DNA of 64,000 nt from Paracoccaceae bacterium (GTDB taxonomy: Bacteria; Pseudomonadota; Alphaproteobacteria; Rhodobacterales; Rhodobacteraceae). The DNA lies in NCBI GenBank assembly GCA_017510335.1, contig JAFWNM010000029.1:62001-126000 (forward strand), in the 5' to 3' direction. Positions within the stretch are counted from its first letter, which is position 1. Each line of letters begins with the position of its first letter. Shown piece after piece: positions 840 to 34,842 of the stretch. The notes under the pieces are model-generated. The model was not told where the DNA came from. It saw only the letters and a list, made by a program, of their open reading frames with translations, and made no database searches. A program made the translations under genes and the position numbers.

Positions 840-1685
840 TCATGCCCCCGTCGGGCCAAGCGTGGTGCCATAGACGAAGCCCTTTTCCTTCAGCCAGCGC
901 CGATAGGCGATGGATGACGCATCGGCGCGGGTGGGCGTTTCCAGACGCGGTTCCAGCGGCAATAACCGTGGGCGCTGGTTTTCCAGAATGATGCGGTCTT
1001 GCAAAAATATGACCTGCTGAAACCCGATCAGGTCGCGTTGGTGCGATGCATTGTCAATCAGGAACATCATTGCATGCGCACGGCATAGATCAGGCGCCAT
1101 TGGTTGAACAAACAGACAGATCACATCCCAGCGGTCCGGGTCTGACGGGCAGGTTTTATACAGCATCACCACCAGCGGGCGCGCAACACGATACATATAG
1201 CGCGTGTCAATCGCATCCGTGGCCGAAAGCGCGGCTTTGGGTTGCACAAACTTGCAATCCGTGGCCCACACCTCGTCCACATCACGCCGAATTTCGCACG
1301 CGTAGTGCAACACTTCTGTATGGGGTTCCGACCCCAGAATATCAGTATGAACAAACGGAAAATGCGCCATATCCAGAAAATTCTCGACAATACGCAACCC
1401 GGATGCGCGCACTGTCACGCCGCCGCATGCCACATGCCGGCGGTCAGGTTCATCCGCTTCCGCAATCGCGGGCAGTCCGGTGTCTGGGCGGCCCAGCGTT
1501 GCCCAAAGATGGCCAAAGCCCAGCATATGCTGGACAGGCTGGCCATTGGCATGCACCGCGAAATTCTGCGAAGTGCGCTGAATATCAAGCGATTGTCCAA
1601 GAAGCATATTCTGGCTGGACCCTTGTGGAATTACATCAAGGGGGTCCAGACAATACCATTGGTTCAATGCGGCCTTGTCTGCCAT
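840..1685 (-). CDS. Rieske-type oxygenase catalytic subunit lacking the Rieske cluster (NdmC-like)
   Basis: 281 residues with the catalytic-domain signature of ring-hydroxylating/N-demethylating oxygenases: the block ENFLDMAHFPFVH gives N102-x2-D105-x2-H108-x4-H113, the bridging Asp and two mononuclear-iron His ligands, and LQDRIILENQRP near the C-terminus probably supplies the third (Asp) ligand. The usual CxH...CxxH ligands are absent. The N-terminus still looks like the ends of a Rieske domain (NQWYCLDPLD...LLGQSLDIQR, then MLGFGHLWATLG), as if only the cluster-binding middle had been lost. Family oxygenases are usually 340-450 residues. The gene diverges from the one for a free Rieske protein (2219-2911), a likely electron donor. 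A paralogue at 8719-9561 is almost identical around the iron site. Start at 1685 is supported by an AAGGCGG ribosome site. The substrate is unknown; N- or O-demethylation is plausible from family kinship. Confidence 0.85.
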   Translation of the reverse strand: MADKAALNQWYCLDPLDVIPQGSSQNMLLGQSLDIQRTSQNFAVHANGQPVQHMLGFGHLWATLGRPDTGLPAIAEADEPDRRHVACGGVTVRASGLRIVENFLDMAHFPFVHTDILGSEPHTEVLHYACEIRRDVDEVWATDCKFVQPKAALSATDAIDTRYMYRVARPLVVMLYKTCPSDPDRWDVICLFVQPMAPDLCRAHAMMFLIDNASHQRDLIGFQQVIFLQDRIILENQRPRLLPLEPRLETPTRADASSIAYRRWLKEKGFVYGTTLGPTGA

Positions 1686-1960
1686 CTGAGCCCGCCTTGT
1701 TGAAGATCACCACAGCCATCAACCTGCATGGGCGGGGCGCGCAAAGTCAACTGGCGCGACAGCAGGCTGGCCATTGCAAAGATGGCAGTGCGCGCGCCCA
1801 TACGCCCGCTGCACATTATTGATGCGCTGGCGCGCAATTTTCATACATTTCATGCGCGGCAGCATTCGGGGGTTGTTGCGCAGAACACAACACTTGACGG
1901 TTTCCATCCGGCGCCAAAAGCTGCGGGTAAACCTGCCCCGCGCATTCGACGGAACCCGCA
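1686..1960. promoter_or_regulatory. Divergent promoter region of the split oxygenase genes
   Basis: 275 bp separate the two divergently read halves of the split oxygenase. An inverted repeat with arms CGCGCA (1831-1836) and TGCGCG (1853-1858) brackets an AT-rich core (TTTTCATACATTT), the only AT-rich spot here. It is a reasonable place for a promoter and operator, perhaps for the LysR protein encoded at 3547-4476. No start-site data; this is inference from position and composition. Confidence 0.4.
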
Positions 1961-2215
1961 ATGAACACCACTGTCACCCTTGAATTTCTGGGCGATCTTC
2001 CTCAGGCCAGCTTTGCTGAATTTGCGGCCCATCGGGCGGCGCGGCTGTCGCTAAGCCACCGGATGATTGCACAGGATGCGGGGCGCGCATTGGTGCAGCT
2101 GTCCGGCCCCGAAGCGCTGGTTGATGCGTTTGAAATGGCGCTTAGCCTTGGCCCGCAAAGCTGCATTGTGCGCGATGTGCGCCGACAAGAAAACCACCGC
2201 GAAATCCCGGAGTAG
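1961..2215 (+). CDS. Acylphosphatase-fold small protein without the catalytic loop
   Basis: 84 residues that follow the acylphosphatase pattern closely: a first strand (VTLEFLGDLPQ), a helix (SFAEFAAHRAARLSLS), a strand pair, a second helix (VDAFEMALSLGP) and a last strand (SCIVRDV). The ending resembles the family's v..F...L..GP..A.V..V. The active-site loop, normally GxVQGVxFR with an essential arginine, is replaced by GDLPQASFAEF, and the catalytic Asn region (GWVxN) is also altered, so acyl-phosphate hydrolysis is unlikely. It starts the plus-strand group acylphosphatase-like, Rieske protein, GST, LysR, 3 bp before the Rieske gene, which suggests a binding or assembly role with the oxygenase. 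The fold assignment is by eye; function unknown. Confidence 0.55.
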   Translation: MNTTVTLEFLGDLPQASFAEFAAHRAARLSLSHRMIAQDAGRALVQLSGPEALVDAFEMALSLGPQSCIVRDVRRQENHREIPE

Positions 2216-2218
2216 ACG

Positions 2219-2911
2219 ATGCCGCACCCGCCAACTGATCATGCAAAATGGACACCGCTTGCCCTTGCATCTGACATTCGGACCGCAACATCGGCCGGAA
2301 CTGTCTGGAACGGCGCAGAAATTGTCATATGGCGCGACAGCGCAGGCACAGCGCACGCATGGGAAGATCGCTGCCCCCATCGCGGCATGAAGCTAAGCTT
2401 CGGGTTTGTGCGCGGGGACCGGATTGCCTGTCTGTATCATGGTTGGGAATATGACAGCACGGCAGCGTGCCGCTACATTCCCGCCCATCCTGAACTGGAC
2501 GTGCCCGCGACTATTCGCGTGGCCCGATACAAGGCCGCTGAAGCGCTTGGCATGATCTGGGTTGCGCCGCTGGACCAATCTGCCCCGGCGCCTGTTGACG
2601 AAACAAAAGTGTCCGCCCTGCGAAGCCTGCAAGTTGACGCGCCCTTGCCGGTGCTGACACAGCTGCTTGCCACTGCCGGATTGCCCGGCGCGGGGGGCGT
2701 GCGCGATGTGGTGGTTGATGGTTCGGTCATTCGTCTGACACAAGGCGCGCTGAGGCTGATTGCGGGGTTACATCCTGTGGACGGGGCGACAAGCATTTTG
2801 CACCTTGGCGTGCAAGGGACCTGCGCGCCAGACACGCTGGCCACCCTGGTTCCCGCAACTGCCGCATTGCGGCGGCTGGCAGAAACCACCGCTGCGGGGG
2901 CTGCGCAATGA
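2219..2911 (+). CDS. Stand-alone Rieske [2Fe-2S] protein, probable donor for the split oxygenases
   Basis: 230 residues. The N-terminal half is a complete Rieske domain with C52-x-H54 (CPHRG) and C71-x2-H74 (CLYHGW), ending in the G-x-IWV strand normal for oxygenase alpha subunits. The C-terminal half (about residues 115-230) has no N-x2-D-x2-H-x4-H motif, so it cannot hold mononuclear iron, yet phrases such as LHPVDGATSILHLGVQG look like strands of the oxygenase helix-grip domain. It therefore appears to be an oxygenase alpha subunit that kept the Rieske cluster and lost the iron site, the reverse of the proteins at 840-1685 and 8719-9561. GGAG precedes the ATG. Its stop overlaps the GST start (ATGA). 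No flavin reductase is encoded in this window, so the source of its electrons is unknown. Confidence 0.85.
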   Translation: MPHPPTDHAKWTPLALASDIRTATSAGTVWNGAEIVIWRDSAGTAHAWEDRCPHRGMKLSFGFVRGDRIACLYHGWEYDSTAACRYIPAHPELDVPATIRVARYKAAEALGMIWVAPLDQSAPAPVDETKVSALRSLQVDAPLPVLTQLLATAGLPGAGGVRDVVVDGSVIRLTQGALRLIAGLHPVDGATSILHLGVQGTCAPDTLATLVPATAALRRLAETTAAGAAQ

Positions 2912-3540
2912 CGAAACCCACCTTGTGGAATTACGATCTGGATGATGCCTGCTACCGCGTGCGTCTGATGGCGTCGCTGGCGGGGGTGCGCCTGGACCTG
3001 CGGTCGGTCGATGCCTTTCCGGGACACGAACATCTGGGCGATGACATGTTGGCCCTGAACCCGCTTGGCCGGTTGCCCGTGTTGGAAGACGGTCCACTTA
3101 TCCTGCGCCAGACAGAAGCCATCTTGCTGCATCTGGCCCGCCTTGGCCCACGCGGAACGGCGTTTTTGCCGTCTGATGATGCGGGCGTGGCGCGTATGCA
3201 GGATTGGCTTTTCTTTGCGTCGCGTGACCTGGCGGCACCGTCTCAGGCGCGGGCGGTCGCCATGCTGGGCGCGGCAGGGGATGCGCTGGCGCTGAAGGAC
3301 ACTGCACGCCACGGGTTGCGTCTGCTGGAAGATCACATGACCGCGCAAGGGTTCAGGGGGCAGGGCTTTGTCGCGGGCGTGCATGCGACAGTTGCCGACA
3401 TCGCGCTGTTTCCTGCCTTCGCGCTGTGCCGGGACTTCAACCTTGACCACGACGCTTTCCCTGCCTTGCGGCTATGGGCGCGCAGGGTGCGCCAGCTTGA
3501 CGGCTTTATCACCATGCCGGGCATACCGGATTATCACTGA
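2908..3540 (+). CDS. Glutathione S-transferase-fold protein (NdmE-like by context)
   Basis: 210 residues with an N-terminal thioredoxin-like domain (residues 1-80), including LNPLGRLPVLEDGPLILRQTEAI, where the cis-proline and the Thr-Glu that usually bind glutathione are visible, and an all-helical C-terminal domain (about 90-205) with the GST cap motif VADIALFPAF. It is coupled by a 4-bp overlap to the Rieske gene. In the caffeine N-demethylase complex of Pseudomonas putida CBB5 a GST homologue (NdmE) is a structural partner of a Rieske-less oxygenase (NdmC), so a scaffold role here is an attractive inference. An enzymatic role, such as glutathione conjugation of an oxidised product, is equally possible from sequence. 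Confidence 0.85.
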   Translation: MTKPTLWNYDLDDACYRVRLMASLAGVRLDLRSVDAFPGHEHLGDDMLALNPLGRLPVLEDGPLILRQTEAILLHLARLGPRGTAFLPSDDAGVARMQDWLFFASRDLAAPSQARAVAMLGAAGDALALKDTARHGLRLLEDHMTAQGFRGQGFVAGVHATVADIALFPAFALCRDFNLDHDAFPALRLWARRVRQLDGFITMPGIPDYH

Positions 3541-3546
3541 GGTATC

Positions 3547-4476
3547 ATGGACCTGCACCGACTAGGCCTTATTTCTACCCGCGTGCAGCATTTCCAGCTG
3601 ACCGCGCGGCTGGGGTCCATCCGGGCAGCGGCGCGGGCGCTGAACATGACGCCCTCTTCTGTCAGCCGGTCTATTCGCGCGCTGGAAGATGACCTGCGCG
3701 CGCCCCTGTTCGACCGTGGCGGGCAACAATTGCGCCTGTCTTCGGCTGGCGAAATGCTGCTGTATCATCTGGGCCAAAGCACTGTCGAGTTGGGCCGCGC
3801 GGTCACCGGCATTGCCGATTTGCGCGGGTTGCGGCGCGGGACGGTTACGCTTGTGTCAATCGAAAGTGCTGCGCGGGGCCTGTTGCCGCGGGTGCTGGCA
3901 GAGTTCTGGGCCCGCAATCCTGAAATTGCTGTCGATGTGCGCGTGACCAGTTCCGCCGAAGCGGCCTCCATGGTCGCATCAGGCGATGCGGATCTGGCGC
4001 TGAGTTTCGACCAGCAGTCATCGCGCAACCTGCGCCGGATCGCCATGGCCGGGCTGGCGCTGGGGGTTCTGGTGCCCCCCGGCAGCCGTTTGACAACCCT
4101 TTGCCCCGGCCCATCCTTGTCGGACCTGTCAGGCGAACGGGTAATCCTGTCGGATTCCAGCCTGACACTGGGACGTTCGGTCGAGGCTGCGATGGGGGAT
4201 GCCTTTGTCGATTTCGCGCGCCGCGGGCGCACCAATTCCATTGCCCTGATGATTGAACTGGCCGAACGCGGACTTGGCACAGTGATGCAGACACGCCTTG
4301 GCGCCGAACGCGAAATTGCGGCGGGGTCGCTGGTGTTCTTGCCCTTGCATGAACGCCGTATCGGGTTGCGCCGCCTGATGCTGATGGCCCGCCCGAAGGC
4401 AGAACTGTCCGAAGCTGCCACTGCACTAAGCGCAGCGCTTGGCCAAGCTGTCGATGCGTTGGCCCCTGATGACTAG
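3547..4476 (+). CDS. LysR-family transcriptional regulator
   Basis: 309 residues. A winged helix-turn-helix covers residues 9-65 (QLTARLGSIRAAARALNMTPSSVSRSIRALEDDLRAPLFDR, the classic LysR pattern), followed by a periplasmic-binding-like effector domain from about residue 90. It starts 6 bp after the GST stop and so probably belongs to the split-oxygenase transcript. A LysR-style dyad (TTGC-N7-GCAA) sits immediately after its stop codon, upstream of the operon starting at 4621, making that operon a likely target. The effector is unknown. Confidence 0.92.
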   Translation: MDLHRLGLISTRVQHFQLTARLGSIRAAARALNMTPSSVSRSIRALEDDLRAPLFDRGGQQLRLSSAGEMLLYHLGQSTVELGRAVTGIADLRGLRRGTVTLVSIESAARGLLPRVLAEFWARNPEIAVDVRVTSSAEAASMVASGDADLALSFDQQSSRNLRRIAMAGLALGVLVPPGSRLTTLCPGPSLSDLSGERVILSDSSLTLGRSVEAAMGDAFVDFARRGRTNSIALMIELAERGLGTVMQTRLGAEREIAAGSLVFLPLHERRIGLRRLMLMARPKAELSEAATALSAALGQAVDALAPDD

Positions 4477-8718: not shown

Positions 8719-9561
8719 ATGGCACTAACAACGGACCCTGTGGCCCTGAACCAATGGTATGCGGTGGCAAGCCTGCCTGTGTCGCCCCATGTCACGCGGC
8801 TTCTGGGGCAGGAGATCGAAATTTCCGCTGGCGCAAACGGGCCAGTGGTGCGGCGCAGCGATACGGGCGCGGTTCTGGCGACACGGCAGAAATGGGGGCT
8901 GCTCTTTGCCACGTTCGGAACGCCCGCCACGGAATTGTTCGACATTGCCGAAGCGCATGAAAGCGACCGCCGCTTTGTGCCCTGCGGCTGGGTCACCATG
9001 CGCGCATCAGGCTTGCGCGTAGTCGAGAATTTTCTGGACATGGCGCATTTCCCCTTTGTGCATACTGACATTCTGGGATCGGAACCCCATACCGAAGTGC
9101 CCCGCTATGACAGCGAAATCCGCCGCGATGTAGACGAGGTATGGGCCACCAACTGCACCTTCTTCCAGACGCGGATTGCGGCCACCGAATCCGCTGGGGA
9201 TTTCGTGCGCCTGACCTACCGTGTGCCCACGCCGTTTACAGTTATGCTGTATCGCGTTTGCCCGTCTGCGCCAGACCGGCTGGATGCGATTGCGCTGTTC
9301 ATCCAGCCTATGGAAGAAACGCTGTGCCGCGCCATCCCGTTGATGTGGCTGGTGGATGACCGCACGGCGCAAACCGAATTGTTGCGCTTCGAACAGGTCA
9401 TATTCCTGCAGGACCGGATCATCGTGGAAAACCAGCGCCCGTTATGCCTGCCGCTGGAACCCCGGCGCGAAACGCCCACGCGCGCGGACAGTTCGTCCAT
9501 CGCCTACCGGCGCTGGCTGAAGGAAAAAGGCCTGCGCTTTGGCACAACGGCGGGGGCATAA
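8719..9561 (+). CDS. Second Rieske-less oxygenase catalytic subunit (NdmC-like paralogue)
   Basis: 280 residues from the ATG at 8719, preceded by AAAGGGGGG; an upstream in-frame TTG (8695) has no ribosome site. Like its paralogue at 840-1685 it has the N-x2-D-x2-H-x4-H iron motif (ENFLDMAHFPFVH), the surrounding HTDILGSEPHTEV block, and the C-terminal LQDRIIVENQRP and PTRADSSSIAYRRWLKEKG, but no Rieske Cys/His ligands. Remnant Rieske strands (LNQWYAVASL, LLGQEIEIS, WGLLFATFGTP) flank the missing cluster region. The two paralogues differ more elsewhere, suggesting the same iron chemistry with different substrates or a hetero-oligomer. Within this window the only obvious electron donor is the free Rieske protein at 2219-2911. 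Confidence 0.85.
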   Translation: MALTTDPVALNQWYAVASLPVSPHVTRLLGQEIEISAGANGPVVRRSDTGAVLATRQKWGLLFATFGTPATELFDIAEAHESDRRFVPCGWVTMRASGLRVVENFLDMAHFPFVHTDILGSEPHTEVPRYDSEIRRDVDEVWATNCTFFQTRIAATESAGDFVRLTYRVPTPFTVMLYRVCPSAPDRLDAIALFIQPMEETLCRAIPLMWLVDDRTAQTELLRFEQVIFLQDRIIVENQRPLCLPLEPRRETPTRADSSSIAYRRWLKEKGLRFGTTAGA

Positions 9562-9563
9562 TC

Positions 9564-12500
9564 ATGGATATTCTTCATCCCGCCACCTTGTCTGACGCAT
9601 TGGCCGCGCTGCGCGAACCGGGCGCGCGTGCCGTAGCGGGCGGCACTGCGTTGCAGGTGGACTGGTCACAGGGCAAGGCGCGTCCGGATATATTGGTCAC
9701 CCTTGGGGCGCTTGGGCTTGATACAGTTCAGATGACCGAAGGGCAGTGCCTGCGCATCGGGGCCACAGTGACACTTGACGTGCTGGACCAGAACGCCCTT
9801 GTTGCGGGGCATCTGCCCCTTCTGGCGTGCGCGTTGCGCGATGTGGCCGCGCCATCCGTGCGCAGGCTGGCAACCCTTGGCGGGCAGTTGGGCTGGGGCA
9901 ACGGGTGTTTGCTGCCGGCGTTGCTGGCGCTTGGCGCGCGGGTCGGGCATACCACCGAACAAGGCCCGCGTGACACGCCGCTGGCGCAATGGCTGGCCGC
10001 GCCCGCGGGGCTGGTCCTGTGGCTGGATGTCCCTGTGCAGCCCGTTGGTGCCCGCTGGTGCTGGCGCAAGGTCGGGTTGCGCGCGGCCTTCACGCCGTCC
10101 ATCATCGCGGTCGCGGGGGTTATGTGCCCTTCACATGGCGCCAGACTGGCAGCGGGCGGCGGTGCAGTGCGTCCTCAGGGGTTGCCAGCTTCGGCCACAG
10201 CGCTGGAAAGTGGCGCGGATATGCCCACGCTGCGAACCCTGCTTGCCAATGAGATTGACGCCCCCGATTGCCCGTTTCGGTCTAGGGCGTATCGCAAACG
10301 CGTGGGGGCGGCAGCACTGGTCGCGGGGCTGGGTCTTGGGCGGGGTCTTGGACAGGGCACGCAGGCCACAGCGGCGCAAGGCCCGTTGCCAAAGGACGCA
10401 AACCCCGCTGGCCTGCGCCCGCTTGCACGCAATCTTTCATCGCCTGGCTGGCATATGCGCCCCGACATGCCTGCGAAGGTGGCAGGGGATGCGGGCTATC
10501 TGACCGACCTGCGCACCCCTGACATGCTGGTGGGGCGCATTTTGCGCGCAGGCCGCCCCCATGCCCGCATCCTGTCCATTGACACACGCGCAGCGCAGGC
10601 AATGCCAGGGGTCCATGCTGTTGTCACCCATGCCGATATTGCGGGGCTGAACGCATTTGGCATCATGCGGCAGGACCAGCCCGCCCTATGTGCAGATGTT
10701 GTGCGCCACCAGGGTGATGCCGTGGCCGCTGTGGCCGCGATTGATGCGCAAACCGCCGATGCCGCATTGGCGGCCATCGTCGTGGACTATACCGACCTGC
10801 CACCTGTAACGGACCCTGCCACAGCACTGGTCCCCAGCAGCCCTGCCTTGCATGCGGGCGGCAATCTGGTCGCAGAATTCGGTCTGGACAGGGGCGAGCC
10901 GGCGACCGCATTCGCCACTGCCGCGCATGTGGTGGAAGATACCTATGTCACACCGCGCCAGATGCATGCCTTCATGGAAACCGAAGGGGGGTGGTGTGCA
11001 CCAACCCCTGACGGTGGGGTAATTGTCGCGGTCGGCGGGCAGCACGGGGCGCGCGACCGCGAACAACTGGCGCGCATTCTGGCCCTGCCAGAAGACAAGA
11101 TACGCGTCATCACCAGCCCCACAGGGGGCGGGTTCGGGGGCAAGGACGAACTGACCGTGCAACCCGCGCTGGCCCTGCTGGCGATCAAGGCAGGGCGGGC
11201 CGTGCGGCTGCATCTGTCGCGGGAAGAGTCAACACTGGCGGGCGTCAAGCGCAACCCGATGCGCATTTCCATGCGCACCGCCTGCGATGCAGTGGGCCAT
11301 TTGCTGGCGCAGGAGGTGCATGTGCTGGCCGATTGCGGGGCCTATGCCTCGCTTTCGCCTGCGGTGGTGGAAACTGCAATGGAACACGCGGCTGGCCCTT
11401 ACCGCATTGCCCATGTCACCAGCCACGGCCGGCTTGTTTACACCAATAACGGCACCGGGGGGGCCTTTCGCGGGTTTGGGGCCAACCAGATGACCTTTGC
11501 GATCGAATGCCAGATCGACCGGCTGGCCGCTGCCTGCGGGCTGGACCCTGCGGAAATGCGGCGGCGCAACCTGCGCGTGCCGGGCAGCCCTGGGTATCTG
11601 GGCCATAGGGTGGCAGGGTCTGAACGTCTGCACGAAATGGTGCAAGCGGCAGCGGCAAGTGCGCTGTGGCGCCCTGTCACGACAACCGACAATGACATCC
11701 ACGCAACAGGCATGGCGCTGAATTATCAGGGGAACGGGCTGGGGTCCTTGCCCCATGACAGCGCCGAAGGGCGGCTGTCACTGGCAGCAGATGGCAAGAT
11801 CGAGGTTGCCTGCGGACTGGATGAAATGGGGCAGGGGCTGTTGCCCGCGCTACAAGCGGCAGTTGCCACGCATCTGGGCTGTGCGCGGTCAGATGTGCGC
11901 GCCATTGTTGGCGACACCGCACACAGCCCGGATTCGGGGTCCACATCGGCATCGCGGGGGGGCTATGTCGCGTGGCAGATCGGCGCGCGCACCGGCCCTG
12001 CACTTGCGCAAAGACTGCTGGACGCCGCTGCCGGTATTCTGGACACCCCTGCCGATGACCTGCGCATTGTGGCAGGGGGTATCGCGCATAAGGGACAAAA
12101 CAGCGCCACCCCGCCCATGCTGGATTTCGCGCGCCTTGCCGCGCATCTGGGCGGGGAGCGGCTGCCAGCTGAAACCACCGCGTTTGATTTTCCCAAAACG
12201 CACTATACAGCGGGCAATGCACGATTTGTCCATTGCTTTGGTGCGACGCTGGCGCGCGTGTCCATTGACCGCGTTACCGGCATGGTGCGGGTTATGGAAC
12301 TGGAAATGCATACCGCCGCCGGTCCGGTGATCGACCTATCGGCCTATCTTGGCCAGATCGAAGGGGGGGTGGTCCAAGGGCTTGGCATGACGTTAAGCGA
12401 AGATACCCTGATCACCCGCGGGCATATGATAACCCGCAATCTGGACAGTTATATCCTGCCGGGCATCCGCGATGTGCCTGCGCAGTTTCATGTCACCGCG

Positions 12501-20822: not shown

Positions 20823-22163
20823 ATGAGAATCTGGTTAAAGAACCCCCTTGCTGTTCTTGCCGCTGATGCGGGCGGCGGCATTGTGGTTGACGAAGGGCGC
20901 ATTGCCGAACTGGTGCCCGCAGGGGGCACGCCGCAAACCCTGGTTGATCAGGTGGTGGATATGTCAGCGCATGTTGTCATTCCCGGACTGATCAACACAC
21001 ATCACCATTTCTACCAGACCTTGACCCGCGCGTTCCCACCCGCATTGAACCGGGAATTATTCCCATGGTTGCAGGCCTTGTATCCGGTCTGGGCGCGCAT
21101 GACGCCGGAAGATCTGGCGCTGGGAATGCGCGTGGCACTGGCCGAACTTATGTTGTCAGGCTGCACCACCACCACAGACCATCACTATGTTTTCCCGAAA
21201 GGGTGCGAACACGGGATCGACATTGAAGTGAATGAGGCCCGCGCCCTTGGCATGCGCGGTGTGTTCACCCGCGGGTCCATGAACCTGTCGGCCAAAGATG
21301 GTGGACTGCCCCCTGACAGTGTGGTGCAGGACCGTGACGACATTCTGGCCGACAGCGAAAGGCTGCTGTCCACCTATCATGATGCGGGCCATGGCGCGCA
21401 GATCCAGATCGCGCTGGCGCCATGCTCGCCGTTTTCTGTCACGCGCGATCTGATGACGGCCTCGGCCGATCTGGCGCGCAGGCATGACGCCAGGTTGCAC
21501 ACCCATCTTGCCGAAACCCGCGACGAGGAAGCCTGGTGCCTTGAAACCTTCGGGATGCGCCCGCTTGATTATCTGGATGAAACCGGCTGGCTGGGTCCGG
21601 ATGTGTGGCTGGCACATGGGGTGCATTTTTCGGACCCCGACATTGCGCGTCTGGCACGGGCGGGAACATGCGTCACGCATTGCCCCTGTTCCAACATGAT
21701 CATTCATTCAGGGCATTGTCGGGTGTGCGAACTGGAAGCGGCGGGCGTGACCGTCGGCCTTGGGGTGGACGGGTCCGCAGCGCAAGACAGTTCCAACCTG
21801 ATGCAGGAAGTGCGGCAGGCATTTCTGCTGCAGCGCCATCATTACGGGGTGTCGGCAGTCACCCATCTGGACGCCCTGCGTTGGGCCACCGAAGGGTCGG
21901 CGGCCTGCATCGGGCGCGAGGGTGATCTGGGGCGCATTGCGGTGGGAATGGCGGCTGATCTGGCCTGTTTCACATTGGATGAATTGCGGTTTTCCGGTCA
22001 TGGCGACCCGATTGCGGCACTGGTCAATTGCGGGGCGCACCGTGCCGACAGGGTCATGATTGCGGGACGCTGGACTGTCTGGGATGGCCAGATACCGGGT
22101 TTCGACATTGCCGCATTGCGCCGTGACCACCAGCACGCCAGCGCGCGCGTTCAACACGCCTGA
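20823..22163 (+). CDS. 8-oxoguanine deaminase
   Basis: 446 residues; an excellent match to the 8-oxoguanine deaminase branch of the amidohydrolases (the annotation often reads hydroxydechloroatrazine ethylaminohydrolase). Metal ligands: H60-x-H62 (INTHHHFYQTLTRAFP), the His in LHTHLAETRDEE, the His in AHGVHFSD, and the Asp in LGVDGSAAQDSSN. The HCPCSNMIIHSGHCRVCELEAAG segment, with its cluster of Cys, is a hallmark of this family. Activity: 8-oxoguanine to urate with release of ammonia. No urate-degrading enzyme is visible in the window. Confidence 0.9.
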   Translation: MRIWLKNPLAVLAADAGGGIVVDEGRIAELVPAGGTPQTLVDQVVDMSAHVVIPGLINTHHHFYQTLTRAFPPALNRELFPWLQALYPVWARMTPEDLALGMRVALAELMLSGCTTTTDHHYVFPKGCEHGIDIEVNEARALGMRGVFTRGSMNLSAKDGGLPPDSVVQDRDDILADSERLLSTYHDAGHGAQIQIALAPCSPFSVTRDLMTASADLARRHDARLHTHLAETRDEEAWCLETFGMRPLDYLDETGWLGPDVWLAHGVHFSDPDIARLARAGTCVTHCPCSNMIIHSGHCRVCELEAAGVTVGLGVDGSAAQDSSNLMQEVRQAFLLQRHHYGVSAVTHLDALRWATEGSAACIGREGDLGRIAVGMAADLACFTLDELRFSGHGDPIAALVNCGAHRADRVMIAGRWTVWDGQIPGFDIAALRRDHQHASARVQHA

Positions 22164-24013: not shown

Positions 24014-25603
24014 ATGAACGCATATATACCCCCTTCGTCCGATGAAGCAAAAGGCAACACCCCGCCCGCGCGCTTGCGCGTGTCGGGGGTGTCCAAACAC
24101 TATCCGGGCTGTCTGGCGAATGATGATGTGTCGCTGGATGTGCAGGCGGGGGAAATACTGGCACTTCTGGGCGAAAACGGCGCAGGAAAATCAACACTGA
24201 TCAAGGTGATTTACGGGTTGGTCGCGCCAGAATCCGGCAGGATAGAGATTGACGGCAAGGCGCGGGCCATATCGTCGCCCGCGGCAGCGCGCGCGGCGGG
24301 TATCGGCGTGGTGTTCCAGCATTTCAGCCTGTTCGACTCACTGACCGTGGCCGAGAATATTGCCCTTGGGCTGGATGACCCCGCGCGCCGGCGCGACCTG
24401 CGGCAGCGCATTCGTGACATTGGCGAACGCTACGGGCTGGTCATCGACCCCGACCGCGTGGTGGCCGATCTGTCTGTGGGCGAACAGCAGCGCGTCGAAA
24501 TTGTGCGCGTCTTGCTGCAAGACCCTTCCATCCTGATCTTTGACGAACCGACATCGGTTCTGACGCCGCAAGCCATTCTTGGGCTGTTCGAAACCCTGAA
24601 CCAGTTACGCCGCGAAGGGCGCGCGATCATTTTCATTTCGCACAAGCTGGAAGAAATCCGCACACTGTGCAACCGCGCGACGGTGTTGCGCGGCGGGCGT
24701 GTCGTGGGCACCGTGCCCGTTGCAGGGGCCAGCGTCAACGACCTGGCGCGCATGATGATCGGGCAGGAAATGCCGCCGCTTGGGGCAGGGGCAGCAGGAC
24801 TGGGCGGCCCGGTGCAACTGGCCGCGCATGATTTAAGCTTGCAGCCCGCAAACCCCCATGGAACAGCGCTGGACGGGTTGAACATGCACGCGCGCGGCGG
24901 GGAAATTCTGGGCATCGCCGGTGTTGCAGGCAACGGTCAGGAAGAACTGCTGGCGGCGCTGTCGGGGGAACGGCTGGCCCGCGCGGCTGGTGCCATAACC
25001 CTGGGGGGGCAGGCGGTGGGGCGCATGGGGCCGGGGGCGCGGCGGAAACTGGGCCTGGGGTTTGTGCCGGGCGAACGGTTGGGGCGCGGCGCAGTGCCGC
25101 CCATGTCGCTTGCGGAAAACGGGTTTCTGACGGCGCATTGGCGCGTGCCGCTGACATGGCGTTGGGTCATTTCCACACGCAAGCGCAATGCCTTCGCCGC
25201 GCGTGTGATTGACGAGTTTCGCGTGGCCACCCGGTCGCAAGCCACGGCTGCACAGGCGCTTTCAGGCGGGAATTTGCAACGCTTTATTGTGGGGCGCGAA
25301 ATTCTGTCAGACCCGCGCGCGCTGGTTGTGGCCTATCCGACATGGGGTGTGGATGTGGCGGCCGTCGCCGCCATCCATGCAGCGCTTGTTGCCCTGCGCG
25401 ACAAAGGCGCGGCCGTTATTGTCATGTCCGAGGATCTGGATGAATTGCTGTCGTTATCGGACTGTGTTGCGGTTCTGTATCGTGGCAGGTTGTCCGCCCC
25501 CATCCCGCGGGACCAATGCACCCGCGAAAATCTGGGCCTGCTGATGAGTGGTGCCGCACCCCTGGACCCAGCTACCACCCAAGGAGATGTGGATGCCGCT
25601 TAG
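24014..25603 (+). CDS. Nucleoside ABC transporter, double ATP-binding protein
   Basis: 529 residues with two tandem ATPase domains, as in NupO/YufO and BMP-type nucleoside importers. The first half is complete: Walker A GENGAGKST, Q-loop FQHFSLFDSLT, signature LSVGEQQRVEI, Walker B ILIFDEPTSVL, switch ISHKLEEI. The second half has GVAGNGQEELLAALSG in place of Walker A, LSGGNLQRFIVGREI, and a weakened Walker B (ALVVAYPTWGVDV), the usual asymmetry in this family. It overlaps the first permease gene by 11 bp. Confidence 0.93.
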   Translation: MNAYIPPSSDEAKGNTPPARLRVSGVSKHYPGCLANDDVSLDVQAGEILALLGENGAGKSTLIKVIYGLVAPESGRIEIDGKARAISSPAAARAAGIGVVFQHFSLFDSLTVAENIALGLDDPARRRDLRQRIRDIGERYGLVIDPDRVVADLSVGEQQRVEIVRVLLQDPSILIFDEPTSVLTPQAILGLFETLNQLRREGRAIIFISHKLEEIRTLCNRATVLRGGRVVGTVPVAGASVNDLARMMIGQEMPPLGAGAAGLGGPVQLAAHDLSLQPANPHGTALDGLNMHARGGEILGIAGVAGNGQEELLAALSGERLARAAGAITLGGQAVGRMGPGARRKLGLGFVPGERLGRGAVPPMSLAENGFLTAHWRVPLTWRWVISTRKRNAFAARVIDEFRVATRSQATAAQALSGGNLQRFIVGREILSDPRALVVAYPTWGVDVAAVAAIHAALVALRDKGAAVIVMSEDLDELLSLSDCVAVLYRGRLSAPIPRDQCTRENLGLLMSGAAPLDPATTQGDVDAA

Positions 25604-26672
25604 GCTTGTTGCGCGCCTGAAGCCGTCGCCGCTGGCACTGTATGGCGCGCCAGTTCTGGCCATCGCCTTGACAGTGGCCTTCGGCTTTTTGCTGTTTCTG
25701 GGCATTGGGCGCGACCCTTGGGCGGCGCTATATGCCTATTTCATTGCGCCCGTAAATTCCGCCTTCGGGTTAAGCGAATGGTTGCTGTCGGCGCTGCCGC
25801 TGGCCTTGATCGGGCTGGGGCTGGCGGTGGGGTTTCGCGCCAATATCTGGAATATCGGGGCCGAGGGGCAGCTGGTTCTTGGGGCAATCGGGGGTGGCAC
25901 GGTGGCGCTTGCGCTGTGGCGCGAAGGGGTGCCAGGAACATTTGCGCTGGTTTGTGTGGCGGGGGCACTAACCGGCATGGCATGGGCGGCCATCCCGGCC
26001 TTGCTGCGCACAAAATTCAACGCCAATGAAATTCTGACCAGTTTGATGCTGATCTATGTGGCCGATCACTTGTTGGGGTGGCTGGTGCATGGGGCTTTGC
26101 GCAACCCGCAGGGCTTCGGGTTTCCTGAAAGCCGCTTGTTCAGCCCGGAAGCTGTCATGCCGCTGTTATGGCCGGGCACGCGGTTGCATATTGGCTGGCT
26201 GGTGCTGCCGCTGGCCGCCTTGGCCGTGTGGTTCCTGATGAACCATATGGTGGCAGGGTTCCGGCTGCGCGTCGGGGGCGATGCCGCAAATGCCGCCAGC
26301 TATGCAGGGTTTTCGCGCACACGCATGGTGTGGCTGTCGTTTCTGCTGACAGGCGGGCTGGCCGGTCTGGTTGGCGCGATGGAGGTTGCAGGCCCCGTCG
26401 GACAGTTGCTGCCCAAAATTAGCCCCGGCTATGGCTTTGCCGCCATCATTGTGGCGTTTCTGGGCCGGTTGCACCCAGTTGGCGTGGTGCTGGCCGCGCA
26501 TTTGCTGGCGCTGATCCTGATTGGCGGGGAAAATGTGCAAATGCTGGGGGTGCCAGTCGCGGTCGCGCAGTTGTTCCAAGGGGTGCTGCTTGTCACCCTA
26601 CTGGCCAGTGATGTTCTGGTGCGCTACCGCGTGGTGCGTGTGGGCCGCCTTGGCGAAAGGGCGCGCGGATGA
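25593..26672 (+). CDS. Nucleoside ABC transporter permease 1
   Basis: 359 residues from the ATG at 25593, chosen because AAGGAG at 25581-25586 is correctly spaced for it and too close to the ATG at 25587. Multiple hydrophobic helices. ALGLAVGFRANIWNIGAEGQLVLGAIGG is the conserved BPD_transp_2 motif of the YufP/RbsC-like nucleoside permeases, with the later GGDAANAASYAGFSRTRMVWLSFLLTGGLAGLVGA. Pairs with the permease at 26669-27598. Confidence 0.93.
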   Translation: MPLRLVARLKPSPLALYGAPVLAIALTVAFGFLLFLGIGRDPWAALYAYFIAPVNSAFGLSEWLLSALPLALIGLGLAVGFRANIWNIGAEGQLVLGAIGGGTVALALWREGVPGTFALVCVAGALTGMAWAAIPALLRTKFNANEILTSLMLIYVADHLLGWLVHGALRNPQGFGFPESRLFSPEAVMPLLWPGTRLHIGWLVLPLAALAVWFLMNHMVAGFRLRVGGDAANAASYAGFSRTRMVWLSFLLTGGLAGLVGAMEVAGPVGQLLPKISPGYGFAAIIVAFLGRLHPVGVVLAAHLLALILIGGENVQMLGVPVAVAQLFQGVLLVTLLASDVLVRYRVVRVGRLGERARG

Positions 26673-27598
26673 TCGATTCAGCCTTGATGGTTGCCATCCT
26701 TGTTTCGGCAATGCGCACAGCAACCCCGTTGATCCTGGCCGCCCTTGGCGAACTGGTCGTCGAGAAGGCAGGATGCGTCAATCTGGGCGTTGAAGGGATG
26801 ATGCTGGTGGGCGCGGTAACAGGGTTTGCCGTGGGTCTGACGACTGGAAATTTCGCACTGGCCTTCATGGTTGGGGCCATTGCCGGGGCGGGGTTCAGCC
26901 TGATTTTCGGGGTGCTGGTTCTGGTTTTTCAGGTCAATCAGTATGCAGCGGGGCTGGCACTGACAATTCTGGGGGGCGGGGCGTCCGCGTTCTGGGGGCA
27001 GGCGTGGCAGGGGCGCAACATGCGCGGGTTGCAACCTGTCGAACTGCCGGTGCTGTCTGACCTGCCCGTGATTGGCGCCATGTTCACCCGCCTTGATGTG
27101 GTGGTGTACATGGCGCTGGCCGCGACGGTCATTGTTGCGCTGGTGCTGACACGCACCCGTGTTGGCCTGATCCTGCGCGCTGTGGGCGAAAACCACGACA
27201 GCGCGCATGCCCTGGGGTTTTCCGTCATCAAGGTGCGCTTTGCTGCCATTGCCTTCGGGGGGGCGTTTGCGGGAATGGGCGGGGCGTATCTGTCCTGTGT
27301 CATGACCCCGCTATGGATAGAGGGGATGACCGCAGGGCGCGGCTGGATCGCGGTTGCGCTGGTGGTTTTTGCAACATGGAAACCCGCGCGGGTGGTGCTG
27401 GGGGCGTGGCTGTTCGGCCTTGTGTCCGTGATGCAGATTCACGGGCAGGGGCTGGGGCTGGCGGTGCCGTCACATGTGCTGGCCATGCTGCCCTATCTGG
27501 TCACCATTCTGGTCCTTGTCCTGATCAGCCGCGATGCAACCCGCATACGCCTGAATGCGCCCGGATGTCTGGGCAAACCCTTCCGCCCGACCGCATGA
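26669..27598 (+). CDS. Nucleoside ABC transporter permease 2
   Basis: 309 residues, overlapping permease 1 by 4 bp. It has the shorter YufQ-like layout: ATPLILAALGELVVEKAGCVNLGVEGMMLVGA near the N-terminus, GLILRAVGENHDSAHALGFSVIKVR in the cytoplasmic loop that contacts the ATPase, and a hydrophobic C-terminal half. Together with the preceding permease it forms the heterodimeric channel of a BMP-type importer. Confidence 0.93.
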   Translation: MIDSALMVAILVSAMRTATPLILAALGELVVEKAGCVNLGVEGMMLVGAVTGFAVGLTTGNFALAFMVGAIAGAGFSLIFGVLVLVFQVNQYAAGLALTILGGGASAFWGQAWQGRNMRGLQPVELPVLSDLPVIGAMFTRLDVVVYMALAATVIVALVLTRTRVGLILRAVGENHDSAHALGFSVIKVRFAAIAFGGAFAGMGGAYLSCVMTPLWIEGMTAGRGWIAVALVVFATWKPARVVLGAWLFGLVSVMQIHGQGLGLAVPSHVLAMLPYLVTILVLVLISRDATRIRLNAPGCLGKPFRPTA

Positions 27599-27627
27599 CA
27601 AACAAATTACAACAGGAGAGAGTGAAC

Positions 27628-28692
27628 ATGACACCAAAAAGAACGTCCATTTTTCTGGCCGCCGCGCTTGGCCTTGGGCTGGCAGGGCCGGTGGCCGCGG
27701 ATGAACCGCTGAAAATCGGTTTTGTGTATTCATCCCTGATCGGGGATGCGGGCTGGACATTCCAGCATGATCTGGGCCGGCTGATGCTGGAAGAAGAATT
27801 CGGGGACCGCGTTGAAACCGCCTATGTCGAAAGCATTGATGGCGGGGCCGATGCGGAACGCGTGATCCGACAGTTTGCCAGTCAGGATTTCGGGCTGATT
27901 TTCGGCACATCCTTCAACCATATGAACCCGATGGCGCGCGTGGCCGCACAATTCCCTGATATCGCGTTCGAACATGCCACCGGCTATACCCAAGACACCA
28001 ATCTGGCGATTTACCACACCCGCGCTTATGAAAGCCGTTATCTGGTTGGGATGGTGGCGGGGCTGATGGGCGACAGTCTGGGCGTGGTCGCGTCCTATCC
28101 CATTCCTGAAGTGTTGCGCGGCATCAACGCCATGACGCTGGGGGCGCGGTCGGTCAATCCTGATTTCACCACCCGCGTTGTGTGGATTTCATCATGGTTT
28201 GACCCCGGCCTTGAACGCACCGCCGCCGATGCGCTGCTCGATCAGGGCGTTGATGTGCTGGCGCATTTCACCGACAGCCCGGCCGTGGTGCAAGCCGCCG
28301 AGGACCGGGGTAAATATGTCGTGGCCCTGGGCGACATGGCACAATATGGCGAAAACTCGCATCTGACCGCGCTGGTCTATAACTGGGGGCCATATTACGT
28401 TGAACGCACGCGCATGGTGCTGGACGGAACATGGGAAACCGCCAACACATGGGAAGGGATCAGCGCCGATATGATGACCATCGCGCCCTATAATGACGCG
28501 GTGCCCCAAGATGTGCGGGACGTTGTCGATGCCAAGATGGAAGAAATCCGCAGTGGCGCGTTCCATCCGTTCCAAGGGCCACTTGTCGCACAAGATGGCA
28601 GCGAGAAGGTCGCTGATGGCGAATTGCCCGATGACGGACTGCTGCTGTCAATGGATTTCTATGTCGAAGGGATTGAGGGCAGCTTGCCTTGA
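27628..28692 (+). CDS. BMP-family (purine nucleoside) substrate-binding protein
   Basis: 354 residues from the ATG at 27628, with AGGAGAG 8 bp upstream. A 24-residue signal peptide (KRTSIFLAAALGLGLAGPVAA) precedes the mature start DEPLKIGFVYSSLIGDAGWTFQHDLGR, the standard Bmp opening (VGFVY.....D.GW). The family binds purine nucleosides (PnrA of Treponema, BmpA/NupN); the ligand residues NHMNP and FEHATGYT are in their usual places. It is the last gene of the importer and is followed by a strong terminator. Uptake of nucleosides fits with the guanine and 8-oxoguanine deaminases upstream. Confidence 0.93.
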   Translation: MTPKRTSIFLAAALGLGLAGPVAADEPLKIGFVYSSLIGDAGWTFQHDLGRLMLEEEFGDRVETAYVESIDGGADAERVIRQFASQDFGLIFGTSFNHMNPMARVAAQFPDIAFEHATGYTQDTNLAIYHTRAYESRYLVGMVAGLMGDSLGVVASYPIPEVLRGINAMTLGARSVNPDFTTRVVWISSWFDPGLERTAADALLDQGVDVLAHFTDSPAVVQAAEDRGKYVVALGDMAQYGENSHLTALVYNWGPYYVERTRMVLDGTWETANTWEGISADMMTIAPYNDAVPQDVRDVVDAKMEEIRSGAFHPFQGPLVAQDGSEKVADGELPDDGLLLSMDFYVEGIEGSLP

Positions 28693-28795: not shown

Positions 28796-30097
28796 TCACA
28801 TGAAACGGTTGACCAGATTTTCCAGCTTTTCTTGTTTGCCAGAACATGGCTGCGGATCAATGCCGCGGGACAGCACGTCAGCGGTGATTGTATCAAGGTC
28901 GCTGTTCAGCAACGCCTGTGCCTCTGGTTTGGTCCAACCGGCATAGCGCGCAGCGCGCGCAGATTCCAGCCTGCCATCTTCCAGCATGGCGGCGGCGGCT
29001 TTCAGCCCACGGGCGCACACATCCATCGCGCCAACATGCGACAGGATCAGGTCCTCGGCATCCAATGACTGGCGGCGCAGCTTGGCGTCGAAATTGGTGC
29101 CCCCTGTGGTAAACCCGCCAGCGCGCAGAACTTCATAATAGGCCAGCGCAATTTCAGGCACATTGTTGGGGAACTGGTCCGTGTCCCATCCCGACTGATA
29201 ATCGTTGCGGTTCATGTCAATGGACCCGAAAATACCAAGGCTGGACGCCAGCGCCAGTTCATGTTCAAAACTGTGCCCAGCCAGAATGGCGTGACCCTGT
29301 TCGATATTGACCTTCACTTCCTTTTCCAGACCGAAACGCTGCAGGAACCCGAACACAGTTGCCACATCGTAATCATACTGGTGTTTGGTGGGTTCCTGGG
29401 GTTTGGGTTCAATCAGGATGGCCCCCTTGAAGCCGATCTTGTGCTTGTAATCGACCACCATCGACAAAAAGCGGCCCATCTGGTCCAGTTCCTTGGTCAG
29501 GTCGGTGTTCAGCAGGGTTTCATACCCTTCGCGTCCGCCCCAAAGCACATAGTTTTCACCCCCCAGACGCTGGGTCGCGTCCATGCAGGTTTTCACCGTG
29601 GCCGCGGAAAAGGCGAACACATCGGGGTCGGGGTTGGTGGCTGCGCCCGACATGAAACGACGGTGGCTGAACAGGTTGGCCGTGCCCCACAGCAGTTTCG
29701 GCCCGCCCGCTTCCATCTTGGCCGCGAAATAGTCTGTCATTTCTTCAAGGTTGCGCGTTGTCTCGGCGAAGCTGTCGCCCTCGGGGCGCATGTCGGCATC
29801 GTGGAAGCAATAATAGGGTGCATTCAAAATGCGGAACATCTCAAACGCGACATCTGCCTTCAGTTTTGCGTTTTGCATGCTGTCGCCAAACCATGGCCGC
29901 AGGAAAGTTTGCCCGCCAAACGGGTCACCCCCCTGCCATGCGAAGCTGTGCCAGTAGCAGATGGCAAAGCGCAGATGGTCCTCCATGCGGCGGCCCAGCA
30001 CAATTTCATCGGGGTTATAGTGGCGGAACGCGAAATCATTGTCGCTGTCCGGTCCCTGATAGGTGATTTGCGGGATGCCTTTGAAAAAATCGCTCAT
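28796..30097 (-). CDS. xylA: D-xylose isomerase
   Basis: 433 residues, full length for class II xylose isomerase. Active-site features are present: the catalytic His region [22 protein letters not shown], the metal ligands in [20 protein letters not shown], and the later [17 protein letters not shown] that binds the second metal. Converts D-xylose to D-xylulose. Last gene of the order xylF-xylH-xylG-xylB-xylA; its ATG overlaps the xylB stop. Confidence 0.97.
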
Positions 30098-31536
30098 GTC
30101 AGTTCCTTGATTGCAGATTGGGCCTTGCGGTAGCGGGCATACCCGTCCTGAAAAGCCTGTGTTTTATCGGATACGGGGTCAAAACTACGCGCGATGGGTG
30201 GCAGCGGCATGGCGTCCGCCCCTGCCCCGGTCGTGGCCATCAGGCCCAGCCGTGCCGCGCCAAGTGCGGCACCATAATCGCCCGCCTGCGGCACCTGAAT
30301 TGGCACATTCAGCGCTGTCGCCAGTGCAGACAGCCAGTATTCAGACCGCGCGCCCCCGCCTGCGGCCAGAAGCGTGTCCAGCCGTGTGCCTGTTGCCGCA
30401 AGTGCCTGCTGGCAATCGACAAGTGCGTAAACCACGCCTTCCATTACGGCGCGGGTGGCGGCGGCGCGGTCGGTCGCATGCGCGAGCCCGATGAAAGCGC
30501 CGCGAATGCCCGCATCATTCAGGGGTGTGCGTTCACCGCCCAGATAGGGCAGAAACAGCGCCTGACCCGGGGCCTGCAAGGTGCCCAGATTGGCTGTCAG
30601 GTCAGCGGCAGTCGCGCCCGCGATCCCTGCAAACCAGTTCAGCGCATCCGTAGCCGCCAGAATGACCCCCATCTGGTGCCATGTGTCTGGCAGTGCGTGG
30701 CAAAACGTGTGGACCGCGGTTTCCGGCGCAGGTGCATAACCGTCGGTTGCGGCAAACAAAACGCCCGATGTGCCAAGGCTGACAAAACCCTGCCCGCCCC
30801 GTGCGATGCCCAGCCCGATGGCGGTTGCGGCATTGTCGCCCGCGCCACCTGCCACCGGAATTCCTGCGCGTAGCCCGAATTCCTGCGCAAGGTTTGCGCG
30901 CAATCCGCCTGATGGCGCAGACCCTTCGACAAGTGCGGGCATATGGTCGCGCGTCAGCCCGGTTGCGGCAAGCAAATCATCCGACCAGTCGCGCGCGCCC
31001 ACATCCAGCCAGCTTGTGCCCGCCGCATCCGACATTTCCGCGACATGGGCACCTGTCAGCCACAGGCGCAGATAGTCTTTTGGCAACAAAACCTTGGCCA
31101 CTTGCGCAAACAGGTCCGGTTCCTCGTCGGCCATCCAGACAAGTTTGGGCGCGGTAAAGCCCGGGAAAACGATATTGCCGCTAACCGCACGGAATTGCGG
31201 GTCGGCGTCCAACCGCGCGGCCTGCGCATGGGCGCGGGTGTCATTCCACAAGATGCAGGGCCGCAGCACCTTGTCGGCGGCGTCCAGAACGGTTGCGCCA
31301 TGCATCTGCCCCGACAGGCCAATACCGCCAATGGCGGCCATGTCCACCTTGTCCGACAAGGCGTGCAAAACGGCCTGCGCCGCTGCAATCCAGTCGGCGG
31401 GGTCTTGCTCGGACCAGCCTGGGGCGGGGCGCGCGACATTCAGGGGCGCTGTGGCTTCGGCCTGCACCGCGCCACTGTCATCTATGACAAGCCCCTTCAG
31501 GCCGGATGTGCCAAGGTCCAGTCCCAGATACATCAT
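30094..31536 (-). CDS. xylB: Xylulokinase
   Basis: 480 residues of the FGGY kinase family. The N-terminus [17 protein letters not shown] is the phosphate-1 motif. The segment [14 protein letters not shown] is typical of xylulokinase, and [25 protein letters not shown] is the C-terminal FGGY signature. Phosphorylates D-xylulose to xylulose 5-phosphate. It overlaps both xylA and xylG by 4 bp, showing translational coupling. Confidence 0.96.
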
Positions 31537-32279
31537 GCCGCCTTCTCTGCTTTCTTGCCCATGATGATCATGGATAGAATGTCATCTTCGGTCACGTCCT
31601 CGACCCGTTCGGTGCCGATAAGCTGGCCATTCTTCATGACGCTCACACGGTCGCACAATTCCATCATTTCGCGGGTGTCATGACTGATCAGAAAAATGCC
31701 AAGGCCCTGGGCCTTCAATTCCATGATCAGGTCGGCCACCATCTTGGTTTCATGCACCCCAAGCGCTGCGGTCGGTTCGTCCATGATCAGGATACGGGCA
31801 TTGAAATACACCGCGCGCGCAATCGCCACAGACTGGCGCTGACCCCCTGACAAGGCGCTGACAGGTTCCGCAATTTTCTTGAAGTTGGGGTTCAGCCGCG
31901 CCATGATCTTGGTGGTTTCGGCCTCCATGCGGCTGTCATCCAGAAACCCGAACATGGTGCGCAATTCACGCCCCAGAAACAGGTTTGCGGGCGCGGGCAG
32001 GTTATCGGCCAATGCCAGCGTCTGGTGGATTGTTTCGATATTATGCGCGCGTGCATCGCGGGGGCTGTTGATCGTGGCGCGTTTTCCGTCGATCCAGATT
32101 TCCCCACTATCGGCCTTATAGGCCCCTGACAGGATCTTGATCAGCGTGGATTTGCCTGCGCCGTTATGGCCCAGCAGCCCCACCACTTCGCCCGGGTAAA
32201 GGTCAATCGACACATTGTCGACCGCCTGAACCCCGCCAAAAGCGATAGAGATATTGCGGATATCTACAAGTGGCGTCAT
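31533..32279 (-). CDS. xylG: D-xylose ABC transporter ATP-binding protein
   Basis: 248 residues with a single ATPase domain: Walker [10 protein letters not shown], signature [15 protein letters not shown], Walker [13 protein letters not shown], switch [15 protein letters not shown]. Escherichia coli XylG carries two ATPase domains in about 510 residues; the one-domain form seen here is common in alphaproteobacterial sugar importers (FrcA type), where a homodimer serves. Confidence 0.93.
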
Positions 32280-32282
32280 GGC

Positions 32283-33596: not shown

Positions 33597-33679
33597 GGGG
33601 AAATGTCCTGAATGTCGTGGCCGTGCAGCAATGGCACAGGCAAAGGACCAACAGATGTAGCGTCACATCTATCGAATGT

Positions 33680-33701
33680 GGGGCGGCACATATGCCGCCC
33701 C
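33680..33701. repeat. Intercistronic hairpin between xylF and xylH
   Basis: Perfect 9-bp arms GGGGCGGCA (33680-33688) and TGCCGCCCC (33693-33701) with a 4-nt loop. Hairpins placed directly after binding-protein genes often protect the upstream mRNA or cause partial termination, giving more binding protein than permease. No T-run on the transcribed strand, so mRNA stabilisation is more likely than full termination. Confidence 0.7.
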
Positions 33702-33724
33702 GTTTCTATGCCGTCAAACGGGCA

Positions 33725-34750: not shown

Positions 34751-34842
34751 ACGTTCCTCCCTGAACAGATCTTGGCGCACAACATCGTCTTGCGGCCAGA
34801 CAGCGGGATAATGTCATATATTTTTCGACTGTCAAATAAAAT

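Follow-up and report, generated by a model that had tools for sequence, protein, structure and literature searches.

A Rieske non-heme iron oxygenase with its alpha subunit divided between two proteins is very probably encoded at one end of the window, the 64,000-nucleotide stretch of a Paracoccaceae bacterium genome analysed here (assembly GCA_017510335.1, contig JAFWNM010000029.1, positions 62,001 to 126,000). The protein encoded at 840–1685 has the ligands of the mononuclear iron and lacks a Rieske domain, and the protein encoded on the opposite strand at 2219–2911 carries the ligands of a Rieske cluster and gives no match to the catalytic domain; judged from their sequences, the two would be obligate partners, forming a complex in which electrons pass from the second to the first. 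The pair would descend from a complete VanA-type oxygenase, in a sister arrangement to that of the NdmC/NdmD/NdmE system (NdmCDE), with the Rieske module not fused to a reductase. Genes for an acylphosphatase-like protein and a glutathione S-transferase (GST)-fold protein accompany them.

840–1685, − strand: iron-only (Rieske-less) catalytic subunit A, 281 amino acids (aa); Pfam VanA_C 73.9 bits (cut-off 23.5), no Rieske match
1347–1382, − strand: N-x2-D-x2-H-x4-H motif, residues N102, D105, H108 and H113 of subunit A, read from the sequence
996–998, − strand: D230 of subunit A, expected third iron ligand; invariant in 93/93
1961–2215, + strand: acylphosphatase-like small protein, 84 aa; Pfam 14.9 bits, below the cut-off of 22.5
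2219–2911, + strand: free Rieske [2Fe-2S] subunit, 230 aa; Pfam Rieske 76.5 bits (cut-off 20.3), no VanA_C match
2372–2440, + strand: Rieske ligands C52-x-H54 and C71-x2-H74, read from the sequence; conserved in 82/82
2908–3540, + strand: GST-fold protein, NdmE-like by position; Pfam GST_N and GST_C over cut-off

Two complementary halves

The four reading frames that an earlier note on this DNA had singled out (840–1685, 2219–2911, 2908–3540 and 1961–2215) are all present at these coordinates. That note had read the first two as a complementary split of iron site and cluster, and the domain matches bear this out, with VanA_C alone in 840–1685 and Rieske alone in 2219–2911. The Rieske part is also unfused, as had been claimed: its 230-aa frame ends at the GST-fold gene, which overlaps it by 4 bases.

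Relatives were collected by scanning genome contigs with the two window proteins, and the best 80 of 411 were kept as loci. Among the iron-only proteins of these 80 genome loci, nine plasmid loci and the window, the N, D, H and H of the motif together with the later D, which make up the iron ligands and the bridging aspartate, are invariant (93/93, a count that leaves out five full-length proteins of less than 35% identity), and the CxH-CxxH pattern of a Rieske cluster is present in 0 of the 93. We take D230 to be the third iron ligand, and D105 is presumably the bridging carboxylate expected from knowledge of the family. All four cluster ligands are kept in 82/82 free Rieske proteins, as are two residues that follow the Rieske domain, H195 and R218; a DxxHx3-4H string occurs in one of the 82 (L028).

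Neither window protein combines the Rieske and mononuclear-iron domains in one chain; across the pair, both ligand sets and the bridging aspartate are present. The best relative in the PDB is the same for both, SxtDIOX, which is matched over its residues 112–333 by the 840–1685 protein and over residues 12–119 by the 2219–2911 protein, and these largely complementary spans support the splitting of a single oxygenase type.

A nearby complete alpha subunit, named beforehand in the earlier note as the observation that would speak against the split, was sought in the whole genome (3.6 Mb, 99.99% complete) by Pfam VanA_C and Rieske searches, and no complete VanA-type oxygenase was found. As the partner of the Rieske protein, such an enzyme is out: both VanA_C matches in the genome are Rieske-less, and none of its six Rieske matches lies in a frame longer than 231 aa.

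Recurrence of the gene set

The gene set recurs more often than chance would have it. Genes for a free Rieske protein, a GST-fold protein and an acylphosphatase-like protein lie near the iron-only gene at 78 of the 80 loci, the two misses (L016 and L081) being short contigs of 9.5 and 8.7 kb, and at 78/78 loci the iron-only gene is opposite in strand to the Rieske gene. Among 198 genomes of the window's family, 12 have a split-type Rieske gene (E 1e-30; four of these matches carry one stop within the match and were counted as found), 11 have an iron-only gene (E 1e-40) and 10 have both, compared with 0.67 expected if the two were independent; in 10/10 of these the halves share one contig. The family genomes with one half only, G259, G265 and G174, are 84, 83 and 74% complete, respectively.

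Across 142 genomes of the class, the Rieske match extends past position 156 only in the window's genome and in G099. The Rhizobiaceae, to which G339 belongs (a Rhizobium genome that carries L021), gave 44 matches in 43 of 199 genomes, of which 31 look free (216–356 aa) and 13 fused (591–853 aa) by frame length, a rough guide that can mislead; G518 has one match of free length and one of fused length (L150 and L151). Among 398 genomes across the phylum there are 21 with a match, comprising eight of free length, six of 596–642 aa, one of 437 aa and six that cover the Rieske part only and are complete oxygenases (L139–L144). A reductase match is present in L145, L146, L147, L149 and L151 and absent from L148 (genome G912, 627 aa); four of the six long frames from the phylum were inspected, with a reductase match in three and none in G912. 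The split-type Rieske match of L148 has a stop flagged inside it, and no reductase match lies nearby.

The pairwise distances of the iron-only, Rieske and GST-fold proteins correlate over 86 loci (Mantel r 0.87–0.91, equalled in 0/999 permutations), which indicates joint inheritance, not contact.

Descent of the two halves

Trees were built from 15 of the 80 genome loci, the window, the plasmid loci, L127 and L129–L137, and a second set leaves out seven distant oxygenases. The Rieske trees leave out L137, the Rieske match of which is weak, and rest on 111 columns; long branches drew warnings from the tree programs. All 39 iron-only proteins placed in the catalytic-domain tree, the NdmC-like ones included, fall into one clade (support 96/97), which adjoins the complete oxygenases L139–L141, L143 and L144; within it the NdmC-like proteins are a basal grade, in part weakly supported, and most free-Rieske lineages make up a clade of 31 (98/99). 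When the complete-oxygenase neighbours are left out, the 39 are again one clade (100/99) and the NdmC-like rows become a clade of eight, so the NdmC-like placement changes with the neighbours and the root is unsure. One clade (96/93) takes in all 33 Rieske modules placed, whether free or fused to a reductase; it groups with L139–L144 (83/90), and the first Rieske tree agrees on the same 33 (95/87).

The iron-only and Rieske clades each include Ndm-like members, which upholds the likeness to NdmC/NdmD/NdmE drawn in the earlier note, and the window pair shares descent with the NdmCDE-type loci. The fused Rieske forms group together with the free Rieske protein of L127 (1–1900, genome G099; 100/93), so fusion or fission of the Rieske module may have happened more than once.

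Traces of the missing domain were sought in each half by profile comparison.

1545–1676, − strand: remnant of the first strands of the Rieske domain in subunit A, residues 4–47, cluster-binding part absent; hhalign
2567–2908, + strand: post-Rieske part of the free Rieske protein, residues 117–230, possible catalytic-domain relic; hhalign

Residues 1 to 57 of the iron-only protein align with the opening strands of the Rieske domain at an hhalign score of 49.2 (probability 96.5), where 100 column shuffles gave no more than 14.4; this reads as a clear remnant of that domain. For the Rieske protein, the earlier note had suspected a relic of the catalytic domain, and the local scores are suggestive of one: residues 117–230 give 24.5 versus at most 17.4 in 100 shuffles (probability 14.6), and in a repeat 25.6 versus at most 19.8 in 200 shuffles (probability 22.0) with unrelated controls at 13.9–16.8, over alignments of just 21–26 columns. 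Global support for this relic is absent, however, the score of −1.0 falling below the shuffles; the two probabilities are low, and comparison with complete oxygenases alone stays at the shuffle limit (13.6 and 13.7 versus 12.1 and 14.3). Taken together, the two remnants suggest duplication followed by complementary loss, which they favour over a clean cut.

A second iron-only subunit

8719–9561, + strand: second iron-only catalytic subunit B, 280 aa; VanA_C 63.1 bits, no Rieske match

Overlooked by the earlier note, subunit B is 63% identical to subunit A; its start is taken as 8719, the frame in the open-reading-frame list beginning at a TTG at 8695. Its gene stands in a run with genes for an amidohydrolase, a GMC oxidoreductase, a two-gene thiamine-pyrophosphate enzyme and a molybdenum hydroxylase. 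In the catalytic-domain tree it falls into a separate lineage of three rows, two of them from the same genome (100/100), and is thus not a recent copy of subunit A. Two iron-only genes with one Rieske gene are found in three of the ten family genomes that have both halves (G000, G187 and G257; L040 lies in G257), and L096, L149 and L151 have two iron-only genes each and one reductase-fused Rieske gene. Given the second iron-only protein, a single Rieske protein may be shared by the two catalytic subunits of the window, 840–1685 and 8719–9561.

An iron-only gene 82% identical to that of the window lies on a plasmid of Roseicitreum antarcticum (L091, 11977–12843), with partner genes absent from the 25 kb shown.

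The GST-fold and acylphosphatase-like proteins

Both additional genes had been pointed out in the earlier note, and both have stood up, the adjacent GST-fold gene through its GST_N and GST_C matches and its presence at 78/80 loci, and the added acylphosphatase-like gene through the same recurrence, though its Pfam score of 14.9 is below the cut-off of 22.5. At the position that we take to be the glutathione-binding Glu-Ser motif, the window's GST-fold protein has Gln-Thr, and over the family Glu is found at this column in 15/86 and another residue in 71/86. The profile of the acylphosphatase-like family finds solved acylphosphatases at E 0.08–0.8 and an uncharacterised protein at 0.02; at the aligned positions of what we assume to be the catalytic Arg and Asn of acylphosphatases, Arg is present in 5/82 and Asn in 3/82. 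Both proteins look like structural parts.

Assembly and electron transfer

Ordinarily a single chain of a Rieske oxygenase holds both metal sites, which lets neighbouring subunits exchange electrons. According to PMC7948474, the two sites of CntA are 44 Å apart within a chain and 12.2 Å apart across neighbouring subunits, a bridging glutamate is needed for electron transfer, and the usual oxygenase ring has three subunits (alpha3). The idea in the earlier note that a mixed ring of the two halves could still work finds a precedent in CntA, an ordinary oxygenase, for transfer from Rieske cluster to iron across neighbours (PMC7948474), but not for its geometry: with three places, an alpha3 ring leaves no room for strict alternation of two subunit types, and a mixed assembly would have to be built differently, either as three noncovalent pairs or in an even-numbered form.

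Electrons would be delivered by a cellular reductant to the Rieske protein 2219–2911 and from there, by way of D105, to the iron of the 840–1685 protein, and so to activated oxygen and the substrate. The Rieske protein would hand them on across a protein interface, as neighbouring alpha3 subunits do, and would probably also supply the iron of the 8719–9561 protein. Scaffolding of the two halves would most likely fall to the GST-fold protein, joined in this lineage by the acylphosphatase-like protein. A bolder version, which we put forward tentatively and with less than even confidence, is a modular oxygenase in which a duplicated and decayed stand-alone Rieske protein is shared by at least two different iron-only subunits, with two enzymatically inactive scaffolds (the GST-fold and acylphosphatase-like proteins) and a general cellular electron donor in place of a dedicated reductase.

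Electron donor and substrate

Candidates for a dedicated reductase in the window's genome were set aside. Two PF00970 matches appear by eye to be ferredoxin-NADP-reductase-like and PyrK-like, and a VanB-like match, missed by PF00970 and obtained by direct protein search, lies in a P450-domain frame.

The gene surroundings make a purine the likely substrate. At the 80 loci, a BMP binding protein is encoded at 54, a guanine-deaminase-like protein at 49, an adenine-deaminase-like protein at 39 and an 8-oxoguanine-deaminase-like protein at 38. Curated cut-offs are passed by guanine deaminases (L020 and L021), 8-oxoguanine deaminases (L020, L098 and the window) and an adenosine deaminase (L020); the adenine-deaminase-like protein of L021 is below its cut-off (345.5 versus 472.5), as is an amidohydrolase of L093 below its own. 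The likely job of the enzyme would be the oxidative N-dealkylation of a modified purine, imported by a nucleoside-type transporter and then deaminated. N-demethylation is one option; the enzyme may instead hydroxylate the ring or take off an N-substituent larger than methyl.

Weighing of alternative explanations

Several observations weigh against the reading of a split, purine-directed oxygenase akin to NdmCDE. A VanB/NdmD-type reductase is encoded at 0/80 loci (E 1e-8); the sole strong VanB-like match of the window's genome (L100 34–1743, G000:C43) is fused to a cytochrome P450 domain; and of 20 genomes tried from the 80, a VanB/NdmD-type match at E 1e-20 is present in eight and absent from 12. 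The formaldehyde genes frmA and fghA are found at 0/80 loci in a search of the loci only, the rest of the genomes not being searched; they are present at 2/5 NdmCDE-type loci and missing at 3/5. The gene set is looser in more distant loci, the 11 loci L127–L137 having the acylphosphatase-like gene at 7/11 and the GST-fold gene at 10/11 (E 1e-4). The labels NdmC-, NdmD- and NdmE-like, moreover, rest on gene content at plasmid loci, not on comparison with the sequences of strain CBB5.

Short Rieske proteins occur elsewhere in the window's genome, and the 2219–2911 protein could be another of that sort, an ordinary Rieske ferredoxin for other enzymes, with the iron-only proteins drawing their electrons from elsewhere. 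We consider this highly improbable: a Rieske ferredoxin is about half as long, and the 2219–2911 protein groups with the NdmD-like Rieske modules next to complete oxygenases, has conserved residues after the Rieske domain (H195 and R218, 82/82) and co-occurs with the iron-only gene. The iron-only protein has lost a domain on which complete oxygenases depend, and might be taken for a homologue that is regulatory or catalytically dead; this is scarcely credible, since its iron ligands and bridging aspartate are invariant in 93/93 and NdmC, of the same make-up, is reported to be a non-heme iron monooxygenase (PMC4408171). The same split oxygenase could carry out other chemistry, namely hydroxylation of the purine ring (for example, at C8) or removal of an N-substituent larger than methyl. 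The 8-oxoguanine-deaminase-like genes at 38/80 loci, the adenine-deaminase-like genes at 39/80, frmA/fghA at 0/80 and the GMC oxidoreductase and aldehyde dehydrogenase genes of the window's cluster fit such chemistry; against it, the characterised relative NdmCDE is an N-demethylase (PMC4408171), and the adenine-deaminase-like protein tested is under its cut-off (345.5 versus 472.5). We regard this option as a serious one, if somewhat doubtful. The origin of the pair has an alternative of its own, clean fission of an ancestral oxygenase or loss of the reductase from an NdmD-like fusion. With complete oxygenases present, the NdmC-like proteins branch as a grade at the base of the iron-only tree, which would allow a free form derived from a fused one; a clean cut, however, leaves neither the Rieske-domain remnant of the iron-only protein nor the catalytic one perhaps kept in the Rieske protein, the NdmC-like rows are one clade without the complete-oxygenase neighbours, and the free protein of L127 stands beside the fused forms, so the change may have gone in either direction. 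We judge such an origin rather unlikely next to duplication and complementary loss.

Genomic setting

Further genes of the window bear on regulation and on purines.

3547–4476, + strand: LysR-type regulator, possibly of the cluster; Pfam LysR_substrate/HTH_1
20823–22163, + strand: 8-oxoguanine deaminase (purine context); NCBIfam NF006055 664.5 bits, cut-off 532
24014–28692, + strand: BMP-type nucleoside ABC transporter genes (purine context); 33–42% homologous to transporter genes at relatives' loci

The cluster also has genes for a GMC oxidoreductase and an aldehyde dehydrogenase, the latter read from its translation. After the purine-type genes, translations point to a xylose isomerase, a kinase and sugar ABC transporter genes at 28796–36282. 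Plasmid partition and replication genes of the repABC type (ParA-like, RepB and RP-C) lie at 46427–49915, and the contig is thus probably a plasmid or chromid.

Implications

With a natural two-protein version of a Rieske oxygenase, each metal site could be prepared, reduced, mutated and measured by itself, and the split would render the inter-subunit electron path directly testable. One cluster donor may be paired with several catalytic subunits. The pair would also be an example of how a two-domain enzyme can divide, and it points to a degradation step in alphaproteobacteria that is as yet unassigned and probably related to purines.

Relation to NdmCDE and other known systems

As described in PMC4408171, NdmC/NdmD/NdmE of Pseudomonas putida CBB5 is the N7-demethylase of 7-methylxanthine and consists of a Rieske-less iron subunit, reported as a non-heme iron monooxygenase (NdmC), a Rieske module on another protein, and a GST-like protein. 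The window shares with it the Rieske-less iron subunit, the Rieske module on a separate protein and the GST-like partner. The iron subunit and the partner are both found here in the NdmCDE form; the fusion of Rieske module and reductase is not, the Rieske protein of the window being free and an acylphosphatase-like gene being present. The NdmCDE arrangement was found at plasmid loci of Paraburkholderia caffeinilytica, P. putida, Klebsiella and Sinorhizobium, and the NdmD-like proteins of L094–L097 and L099 are 585–588 aa long. Against the free Rieske profile (228 positions), five NdmD-like proteins align from position 3–5 to position 222–223 (132–142 bits) and five full-length oxygenases only from position 5 to 126–138; the N-terminal ~245 residues of the NdmD-like proteins, post-Rieske part included, are thus the counterpart of the free Rieske protein.

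A plasmid of Paracoccus alcaliphilus (L098) has a free Rieske protein, an iron-only protein, a GST-fold protein, an acylphosphatase, an 8-oxoguanine deaminase and a BMP transporter like those of the window's type, and differs in that the GST gene is followed by a separate gene for a VanB-type reductase. Together with the genes for the free Rieske, iron-only and GST-fold proteins it makes up a row at 9310–12465; the reductase is 42% identical to the reductase half of the P. putida NdmD-like protein, and this layout is intermediate between the free and fused forms.

The nearest complete relatives of both halves are the uncharacterised VanA-type oxygenases L139–L144, which differ in having both metal sites in one chain; their 5.0–6.0 kb stretches contain no GST-fold match (E 1e-4). 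The solved enzymes SxtDIOX, SxtT, NdmA and NdmB match both domains in sequence, but do so within one chain of 334–373 residues. In the literature found, seen mostly at title level and with most subscription papers outside reach, the NdmCDE papers turned up and no description of the free-Rieske form did. The split itself is already known from NdmCDE; the free-Rieske variant with an acylphosphatase-like gene appears to be new.

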